From Methylobacter marinus A45 (GTDB lineage Bacteria; Pseudomonadota; Gammaproteobacteria; Methylococcales; Methylomonadaceae): a stretch of DNA of 64,000 bases. Shown here piece by piece: positions 754-63,190 of the stretch. The position numbers and the translations under genes are program-made. The notes under the pieces were generated by a model, which saw only the letters and a list, made by a program, of their open reading frames with translations, searched no databases and had not been told where the DNA came from. The stretch covers positions 1,584,616-1,648,615 of the forward strand of contig NZ_KB912877.1 of NCBI RefSeq assembly GCF_000383855.1, given 5' to 3'. Within the stretch, counting starts at the first letter, position 1; the number at the start of each line of letters is the position of its first letter.

Positions 754-919
754 GGATCTGGCTAAAAATGACTTCCTGAAACTGGAATCTTGCATAGGAT
801 GCGCTGACCAAAACCAGGCGCTCTAGGCGGCGCAGTGAAGCGCATCGCTCGCGAACGATGCGCCTCCTGTCGTCGGCACATCCTATGTTTAAACAGGGAA
901 ATTATTGACGACCAAATCC
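754..919. mobile_element. MITE-like element family A, copy 1 (TTA-flanked)
   Basis: A 166-bp element with imperfect terminal inverted repeats: GGATCTGGCTAAAAATGACT at the left and the complement of AAATTATTGACGACCAAATC at the right. TTA lies directly outside each end (751-753 and 920-922), as expected for a 3-bp target duplication. The centre is a hairpin-forming GCGCATCGCTCGCGAACGATGC stretch. No coding capacity. Other copies are at 1924-2028, 20481-20613 and 51442-51585. Confidence 0.75.
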
Positions 920-2733: not shown

Positions 2734-2862
2734 GAGCGACGCCTTTATGCCCTTTAGGGTGCTCGTCGCGATTTCAAAGACCGCAATCGCGACGTAGGCG
2801 TCGCTCCCACAATAAATTCCGACCGCAATCGCGACGTAGGCGTCGCTCCCACAATAAATTCC
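2734..2862. repeat. Hairpin repeat with micro-insert, followed by a 42-bp exact tandem duplication
   Basis: The 42-base unit starting GACCGCAATCGCGACGTAGG occurs twice without change (2779-2820 and 2821-2862). Each unit contains an inverted pair, GCGAC and GTCGC. The preceding 2734-2773 is an inverted version of the same hairpin, GAGCGACGCCT ... CGTCGCGATT, whose loop holds an extra TTATGCCCTTTAGGGTGCT (2745-2763). The same micro-insert occurs in other hairpins of the window. Two copies only and no spacers, so this is not a CRISPR array. Confidence 0.75.
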
Positions 2863-8154: not shown

Positions 8155-8296
8155 TGAGCCTTATCCTGATCAACATGGATTCCGCCCGGCCTGTAGGTTC
8201 GAATTTATTCGACCCGAAACGTCTGTGCTATTCTTTAAAATAGTCGTAAGCAGGTAAATCCCGCCGACAAGCCGCTCCAATTAACAGAGGGAAATC

Positions 8297-23448: not shown

Positions 23449-23505
23449 TAGGTGCGAATTCACTTGTGCCCATAGGGCATAAATAAATCCGCACCTACAC
23501 CGGAA
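23449..23505. repeat. Hairpin repeat with micro-insert in the loop
   Basis: GGTGCGAATT at the left and AAATCCGCACC at the right form the arms of the GTAGGTGCGAATTTATTCGCAC hairpin type also seen at 51647 and 63110. The loop holds an extra CACTTGTGCCCATAGGGCAT (23461-23480), a variant of the micro-insert found at four other hairpins of this window. Confidence 0.6.
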
Positions 23506-57799: not shown

Positions 57800-57905
57800 C
57801 TGGATGGGTTGCTCAAAGGCAAACGCTCCAGGCGATGCGGTGAAGCTCGCGAATGATACCCTAAAGGGCACAAGTGCGCCTCCTGGCGTCGACACATCCT
57901 ATGCC
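57800..57905. repeat. Core of a family A MITE carrying the micro-insert
   Basis: AAACGCTCCAGGCGATGCGG ... CTCGCGAATGAT and GCGCCTCCTGGCGTCGACAC match the interior of the MITE at 754-919. Between them an extra ACCCTAAAGGGCACAAGT (57858-57875) is present and absent from the other copies. Ends of the MITE are missing. The rest of the 57415-57939 gap shows no gene. Confidence 0.65.
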
Positions 57906-58988: not shown

Positions 58989-59985
58989 CAGATCAAAGGG
59001 GCGTCTGTATCGTGCGGATGCCCTGATCGGCTCGAGGTGACGGGATTGCGCCCGTCACCCCTGCCACACCACCGGACATGCGGTTTTCCGCATCCGGCGG
59101 TTGGAATCAACGGCTAAGCCGCCCAAGGTTTTGCTCCTTGTCGATACATCTTACGTTGTAAACGCCCTGTTACTGCACTCGCCACCTCCGGCTTCGCCTA
59201 CTGCTTGGAATCCACCAAGCCCAGCGAAACATGGCAGTTGGGTAGCTTGCCGCTCGCGGCTGCTCCGTCCTGTTTCAGATGACTACTCGTGTTTTCACAG
59301 GAGTCCTTTCGTCGTATCTCGATTCCTTCGGCCCTTCGCTCCAGCTTGTTTCCAAGCCTTCCTCACTACTACGGCCTCTGCTGACTTCTCCCAAACTCTC
59401 ATTTGGAAGATCTCCCCGGGTAAGGTGCTAAAACTTTCCGCCCGTGCCGCCAAGCTCTACCTGATGCGTCTTTCGGTAACGGTTGGATTTCGTGTTCCCT
59501 AGCACACTCATCGCCCGCACCCGGCCTCTCTGCTTGTTCGTATTCCTACGGTCGTGCGTTTGCTACACGCTTCTTTCAGGCTGGCCTCGCGGCTTCCCCC
59601 TTGCGTTTCGCTACGGTTGTCGTTACTACTTCCGGTTATCTCCTTTCAGATAACAAGTTTTAGCCCATGCCGGGCACACTAGGGGTGGCCCTACGTGTCC
59701 GCCCTGCTTCCGGGTGCACAATAAATGATCAGAGAACCGCTGGCCAAAGGCGAACCGTTGAGCAAGGGCGAACACACAGGTTCGCCCCTACGTATCCGCC
59801 CTGTTTCGGGTGCGCAATGGGTTATCGAAGAACCGCCAGACAAAGGCGAACCGTTGGGCAAGCTCGTAGGTCGGGTTTACCCTAAAGGGCATAAAAGCGC
59901 CGCGTAACCCGACACTTTCGCGCCACAATGCACCCGCTTGGCTTCGATCTGTCGGGTTACGCCAAAGGCTAACCCGACCTACGGT
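58989..59985. repeat. Repeat-rich intergenic block split by a group II intron
   Basis: 58989-59022 and 59680-59798 are the two halves of the repeat seen whole at 41519-41668. A partial tandem copy follows (59800-59860: CGCAATGGGTTATCGAAGAA then CAAAGGCGAACCGTTGGGCA). At 59870-59915 a GTCGGGTT ... AACCCGAC hairpin holds ACCCTAAAGGGCATAAAAGC in its loop. No protein-coding gene is present. Confidence 0.7.
59026..59679 (-). mobile_element. Group II intron (class C-like) lacking an intron-encoded protein
   Basis: Comparison with the uninterrupted repeat at 41519 sets the borders: 5' exon ...CCACCCCTA, intron GTGTGCCCGGCATGGGC ... CTCGAGCCGAT, 3' exon CAGGGCATCC. The 5' end GTGTGCCCGGCATGG is typical. 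Domain V is CCGCCGGATGCGGAAAACCG CATGTCCGGTGG (complement of about 59070-59101), with a two-base bulge and a CGC triad as in class C. Domain VI follows (GTGACGGGCGCAATCCCGTCAC) and the intron ends in AT (AY rule). It is 654 nt, with no reverse transcriptase ORF. It lies directly after a GGGCGGAC hairpin, as class C introns prefer. Confidence 0.8.
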
Positions 59986-63058: not shown

Positions 63059-63190
63059 TTCAACTGACAGTGACCTTATCGTCTGAAGGGTCATGCATGC
63101 GTAGGTGCGAATTTATTCGCACTAGACTGAACAGCAAGCGTTTCGGGCCGAATACCCTAAAGGGCACAAGTCAATTCGACCCTACCGTTG
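63059..63190. repeat. Dispersed repeat, copy 2, followed by a hairpin with micro-insert
   Basis: 63059-63122 is the inverted copy of 51645-51712. Next, CGTTTCGGGCCGAAT and AATTCGACCCTACC are the arms of a hairpin also found near 8200-8222 (GGTTCGAATTTATTCGACCC), and between them lies the extra ACCCTAAAGGGCACAAGTC (63154-63172). The rest of the region to 63540 shows no gene. Confidence 0.7.

Follow-up and report, generated by a model that had tools for sequence, protein, structure and literature searches.

The window analyzed here, a stretch of 64,000 nucleotides from the Methylobacter marinus A45 genome, contains a palindromic unit of exactly 18 bp, TACCCTRAAGGGCAYAAR (hereafter the 18-mer), which interrupts several otherwise unrelated hairpin repeats. 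In our view, this piece is probably a mobile element of very small size, distinct from the hairpins that harbor it, which was inserted cleanly and then multiplied together with its hosts. Sequence comparisons establish clean insertion of whole units, a weak target, tandem growth, host-borne multiplication, and patchy carriage among genomes. A preliminary description of the window had listed a small palindromic piece of 18 to 20 bp in the loops of five hairpins. The presence of an extra piece in several unrelated hairpins is borne out, and its small palindromic nature stands, but the size is corrected to 18 bp, usually in one or two tandem units.

The core ACCCTAAAGGGCA occurs exactly four times in the window, at 2748-2760 on the minus strand and at 57858, 59879, and 63154 on the plus strand. 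When up to two mismatches were allowed, five matches were found against 1.06 expected, a number reached by none of 100 shuffles. Four of the five hairpins listed earlier hold genuine copies (Table 1), whereas the fifth, at 23461, contains no simple copy but a chimaera that looks like the outer halves of two filled repetitive extragenic palindromic sequences (REPs), the second inverted, that is, a collapsed REP doublet forming hairpin (REPIN). The left junction of the copy at 2744-2760 differs from that of other copies in the GCGACG..CGTCGC host. By direct reading, 63101-63122 and 63145-63185 form an inverted, REPIN-like pair of REPs.

Table 1. Copies of the 18-mer, their host hairpins, and insert-free counterparts in the window (the caret marks the junction)
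Feature	Position	Strand	Remarks
Insert-free paralogue of the 57857 host	840..880	+	
17-bp copy ACCCTAAAGGGCATAAA	2744..2760	-	in GCGACG..CGTCGC hairpin
Insert-free GCGACG..CGTCGC hairpins	2785-2806 and 2827-2848		near the 2744-2760 copy
Insert-free paralogue of the 63153 host (TTCGAATTTATTCGACC)	8195..8218	+	
Chimaera ACTTGTGCCC-ATA-GGGCATAAAT (whole: ACTTGTGCCCATAGGGCATAAAT)	23462..23484	+	in GTGCGAATTC..ATCCGCAC hairpin
18-bp unit TACCCTAAAGGGCACAAG	57857..57874	+	3' stem arm of MITE-like (family A/D) hairpin CTCGCGAATGA^TGCGCC
Host hairpin of the 59878 unit, with GTAG foot	59866..59913	+	direct reading
18-bp unit TACCCTAAAGGGCATAAA	59878..59895	+	in GTAGGTCGGGTT^AGCGCCGCGTAACCCGAC hairpin; junction phase unique
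Partner hairpin GTAGGTGCGAATTTATTCGCAC, no piece	63101..63122	+	direct reading
Host hairpin of the 63153 unit, with CTAC (GTAG) foot	63145..63185	+	direct reading
18-bp unit TACCCTAAAGGGCACAAG	63153..63170	+	loop of GGGCCGAA^TCAATTCGACCC hairpin, CTAC foot

Across the whole genome, 106 places match the 18-mer with at most one mismatch, compared with none for the reversed control, and 88 copies are exact. Stretches fetched around copies make up a 1.14-Mb genome sample, to which the counts that follow refer. It holds 105 arrays, of which 72 measure 18 bp, 23 measure 35 bp (18+17), and six measure 17 bp; 79 consist of a single unit and 26 of two. Nearly all lie within about nine unrelated palindromic repeat families, and for nearly all of them the joined flanks reproduce, exactly or nearly, an insert-free paralogue. 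Because these joined flanks exist empty in the same sample, the filled and empty hosts belong to one family in each case, and the possibility raised in the preliminary description that they are separate families does not apply. The host GTGCGAA^TGAATTCGC is filled in 55 cases and empty in up to 81, and the host CGAACGA^TGCGCC, which resembles a miniature inverted-repeat transposable element (MITE), in 13 and up to 37, respectively. Filled and empty forms number 5 and 11 for the GTTCCCACGC-type host, 4 and 14 for GGTCGGGTT^AGCG, 4 and 60 for GGTACGCAC^TGCGTACC, 4 and 34 for GCGATGTG^GGCATCGC, and 2 and 17 for GGGCGAC^TAAAGTCGCC. The hosts in this genome are mainly REPs with a GTAG foot. The earlier proposal of insertion into loops holds as a preference, but not as a rule: two hosts, the MITE-like repeat and the GTTCCCACGC hairpin, hold the piece in the 3' stem arm, outside the loop, and genes are struck as well (see below). 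There was no replication-strand bias of the arrays (56 versus 49).

The same sample contains 12 copies of a second, unrelated 22-bp piece, CCAACAGTAGGCGC(N2-4)TAGGCG, which occupies loops in some hairpin families shared with the 18-mer and occurs in other contexts in addition. Its hosts in this genome include GGCGACT^AAGTCGCC, GTGCGGATA^AATCCGCAC, and GGTAGAGCA^ACGCATGG, and it is also present in L319 and L321. Separately, an exact 42-bp tandem duplication in the window (2779-2820 and 2821-2862) holds the GCGACGTAGGCGTCGC hairpin.

The borders of the unit are settled because the host junctions GGGTT^AGCG and TGTG^GGCATCGC permit only one phase, in which the unit reads T-ACCC-middle-GGGC-AYAAR (consensus TACCC-loop-GGGCAYAAR), with length variants of 17 to 22 bp. 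CCC and GGG are nearly invariant, and the middle varies (TAAA, TGAA, ATA, TCAA, or TTGCA, and 8 nt in L300). Tails are either ATAAA or ACAAG, and are mixed in only 6 of about 370 units. In 28 distinct units, which are related sequences sampled unequally, the pairs 3-12, 4-11, 5-10, 6-9, and 15-18 are formed in 92.9% of cells, a value reached by none of 500 shuffles and by no slid version. There are 15 double-change cells, the bulk of which come from pair 15-18; this pair is C-G in one half and T-A in the other half of the units and covaries strongly. At pair 4-11, C-G is replaced by T-A in TACTCTAAAGAGCACAAG, and the compensatory change to CTC..GAG keeps the stem. In the fold of one filled REP, the tail and the flanking TG form a second mini-palindrome, CAY-AA-RTG. 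A coding meaning of the unit, which reads YPKGHK and in which CAT/CAC and AAA/AAG are synonymous, was considered and rejected, as there are no other synonymous changes and copies are mainly intergenic.

Outside this genome, further copies are found in plain sequence and in frame within genes. Based on clustering of contexts by 8 flanking bases with at most two mismatches on either side, there are 57 independent flanking contexts, and with more loci at least 68, which are too unlike one another for common descent. The dinucleotide R^T is present at 27 of 68 junctions (p ~1e-8) and G is favored at +2, which amounts to a weak R^TG target; no fixed 5' tetranucleotide was observed among these contexts. 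At the junctions examined there was no target duplication, and insertion was clean, without loss. The hallmarks of MITEs moved by DDE transposases, namely target site duplication and terminal inverted repeats, were not found, and the phase is unique at GGGTT^AGCG and TGTG^GGCA. When joined flanks from other genomes were folded, 32% of the independent contexts ranked in the top tenth by stability among windows of their own locus; hairpins are favored 3-fold, but not required. Heptamer repeats are also among the hosts (L174, L237, L300). The longest tandem arrays, of eight units, occur in an archaeal assembly (L235); those of Lachnospiraceae are diversified.

In-frame copies, each adding six residues, were identified in murG (two copies, L174), argS (L184), prmC (L266), sufD (L152), and trpF (at the same place in both L193 and L329), at the start of a thioredoxin-reductase-like gene (L179, an assignment read from sequence), and in IS1- and DDE-type transposase genes (L170, L159). 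Protein families and the gap were checked against solved homologues; the alignments of murG, prmC, and argS run through a variable region here, so that the gap alone does not equal six residues. The trpF insertion is old and has been kept in a biosynthetic gene. The host gene of a further coding copy (L200) may be of the Rhs type.

Carriage of the 18-mer is patchy, and a genome usually contains several copies or none. The exact 18-mer is present in at least 110 stretches of GTDB genomes, whereas about 5-12 would be expected by chance according to our arithmetic, and the identical sequence is found in Proteobacteria, Desulfobacterota, Firmicutes, and one archaeal assembly. Copies number 111 in Endozoicomonas HY_Ok, 23 in Desulfobulbaceae MAG127 (a metagenome-assembled genome, MAG), 16 in Hydrogenovibrio, 11 in Neisseria dentiae, and 4 in Desulforamulus aeronauticus. 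Within the Methylomonadaceae, the family of the window, carriers make up 37 of 201 genomes and come from 13 of 29 genera, compared with 1 of 397 other genomes of the phylum; among Neisseriaceae, 3 of 83 genomes carry 4-12 copies each. Reversed-pattern controls gave no match in any genome searched. A single match in IMG/VR, at chance level, lends no support to viral spread, and no convincing match was found in plasmids. Isolated matches elsewhere, in Capnocytophaga and some Clostridium, are probably due to chance; the match in Capnocytophaga L181 is a native YPKGHKYI stretch. As a separate observation, intergenic palindromes (GTCATTCCCGC.., CCCTCTCCCGG.., GTCGCAAAAAGTCCGATC..) recur across bacterial phyla (L206, L194, L226, L295, L326, L214, and others).

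Most copies within a genome are hitch-hikers, with a filled REP, MITE, or insertion sequence (IS) carrying the piece along. At the sites syntenic to those of the 57857 and 59878 units in three relatives, the entire host is absent, and at the place syntenic to 63153 in M. luteus (IMV-B-3098, same genus) there is a filled hairpin, TACCCTATAGGGCACAAG, with the middle TATA. At other syntenic places in relatives, whole repeats turn over. Similarly, every copy examined in Neisseria lies within two host repeats. One transposase gene holds the piece in several genomes, in intact and decayed form, and its homologues have an empty GTG^TAAAAGG; the aligned genes, decayed filled copies included, differ by exactly 18 bp at GTGGTG^TAAAAGG. 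Chimaeras and 18-bp hybrids derived from 18+17 arrays reflect rearrangement of REP pairs. Since most copies are due to copying of the host, copy number is not the number of insertions.

If the 18-mer is a mobile element, a trans-acting enzyme would recognize CCC..GGG and CAY-AA-R+TG, two mini-palindromes that lie side by side, and would carry out the insertion; as with HUH enzymes, the piece may be inserted in single-stranded form. Once in place, the unit is multiplied whenever its host, a REP or REPIN, a MITE-like repeat, or an IS, is copied. The resemblance of the unit borders, AAR^TAC, to the target would account for the tandem arrays. Several of our observations weigh against this interpretation. 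No gene family recurs beside the copies, and no inserting enzyme was found in this way. A Y1 transposase match is absent from the carriers Methylobacter G002 (5-6 copies) and G151 (6 copies), from N. dentiae (11 copies), and from four MAG carriers, and the reverse transcriptase domain RVT_1 is missing from 9 of 20 carriers. In Methylobacter, no strain-level polymorphism with an empty orthologous site was found: at the three sites of the window that were compared, relatives either lacked the host or had it filled, the hosts turning over too fast. Most copies per genome are explained by host copying, so that the insertions need not be recent, and the covariation of pair 15-18 may reflect two inherited subtypes.

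Direct insertion of the piece into hairpin loops by a REP-associated tyrosine transposase (RAYT) of the Y1 class, as envisaged in the preliminary description, is an unlikely account, even though GTAG-foot REPs are the main hosts here, hairpin contexts are enriched 3-fold, and the M. marinus A45 genome has 17 Y1_Tnp matches. Y1 enzymes typically insert without duplicating the target. Yet copies inside genes and stem arms and the absence of a conserved tetranucleotide 5' of the site are at odds with such an inserter, and across the family Y1_Tnp is nearly as common in non-carriers (139 of 164) as in carriers (35 of 37). The carriers that lack a Y1 match only weaken a Y1 role, because those that are MAGs are possibly incomplete, and the copies in N. 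dentiae may be old ones that are merely inherited. The presence of neither Y1 nor reverse transcriptase discriminates carriers from non-carriers. Y1/RAYT activity probably accounts for the copying of filled REPs, not for the insertion of the piece. Three equal-scoring copies of an IS200-type Y1 transposase are located in this genome (G000:C1) at 887892-888251, 895484-895843, and 4430554-4430913, the first of them 180-270 bp from two filled hairpins.

The other accounts are weaker. The piece might be a passenger of recombination, gene conversion, or template switching between hairpins at replication, and REP pairs do rearrange (as in the chimaera at 23462-23484 and the 18-bp hybrids) while filled hosts move whole; we nevertheless regard this as improbable, given at least 68 contexts without flanking similarity, precise insertion of whole units into coding genes remote from any repeat, and an identical 18-mer in distant phyla. 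Copying-in during replication of cruciforms, suggested earlier, likewise leaves the coding insertions and the cross-phylum spread unexplained. Slightly less plausible still is an RNA-templated, telomerase-like addition, in which a reverse transcriptase with an 18-nt template would extend broken ends that are later joined. Whole 18-bp units in tandem arrays would suit this process, and DRT10 yields tandem-repeat complementary DNA from a noncoding RNA, but DRT10 templates vary widely between systems, whereas the present unit is fixed across phyla, and no integration is described (PMC12632851). Moreover, all junctions share one phase and partial units are absent, and the carriers without RVT_1 may count against it, although DRT10 would call for a reverse transcriptase of the UG class in particular. 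Constant length and clean junctions could also be expected of the excision scar of a larger element, an explanation with very little to commend it, as no longer element with the same ends occupies any host site in the 1.14-Mb sample, and neither tandem units nor 17-22-bp variants with a variable middle agree with a scar. Chance or an assembly artefact can be set aside almost entirely: some single matches elsewhere are indeed chance, such as YPKGHKYI in Capnocytophaga, but reversed controls are 0 in every genome searched, isolates and single-contig genomes contain many copies, and the old trpF coding insertion is common to two genomes.

A full-text literature search for the sequence of the 18-mer found no paper. 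Its closest relatives by analogy would be the 21-27-nt small dispersed repeats (SDRs) of cyanobacteria (Elhai et al. 2008, Genome Res 18:1484, as related in PMC3116915, PMC2884548, and PMC4390886). According to these descriptions, both are very short, hairpin-forming, and apparently mobile, with no enzyme linked to them; SDRs, like the 18-mer, are also found in heptamer repeats, and SDR5 sits precisely within the palindrome HIP1 (PMC4390886). Like SDRs, the 18-mer is a dispersed unit of less than about 30 bp in many contexts, with a stem-loop backed by compensatory change. As far as the same descriptions go, the 18-mer differs in its length of 18 bp, in its in-frame coding insertions, and in being one nearly fixed sequence in several phyla and an archaeon, whereas SDRs belong to one cyanobacterial subgroup. 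The hosts of the 18-mer match GTAG-tagged REPs and, in other genomes, CGTC-tagged REPs or REPINs (PMC3733652, PMC3116915). REPs and REPINs are short palindromes like the 18-mer, and Y1 genes are present in this genome; unlike them, the 18-mer itself has no GTAG or CGTC foot and is found outside REPs and in genomes without a Y1 match, some of them incomplete MAGs. With the ends of IS200/IS605 elements it shares hairpins and the absence of target duplication, but there is no long element, linked transposase, or fixed 5' tetranucleotide. Rickettsia palindromic elements are palindromic and inserted in frame in genes, as is the 18-mer, but at ~100-150 bp they are much longer and are confined to a single group.

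In conclusion, we report here an 18-mer that is among the smallest mobile-looking DNA sequences known. It is possible, although we advance this more tentatively than mobility itself, that one 18-bp element and a horizontally spread insertion enzyme have colonized several bacterial phyla and archaea, entering palindromes and genes alike; in that case no smaller mobile element would be known, and a new transposition mechanism would be implied. If the 18-mer is mobile, 18 bp would suffice for movement as a unit, and such a piece would add six residues to essential proteins, ride REPs and ISs, and cross phyla. Which agent moves SDRs and other very small repeats would then become a directly testable question, with insertions available in culturable hosts and a substrate of fixed sequence for an enzyme search.
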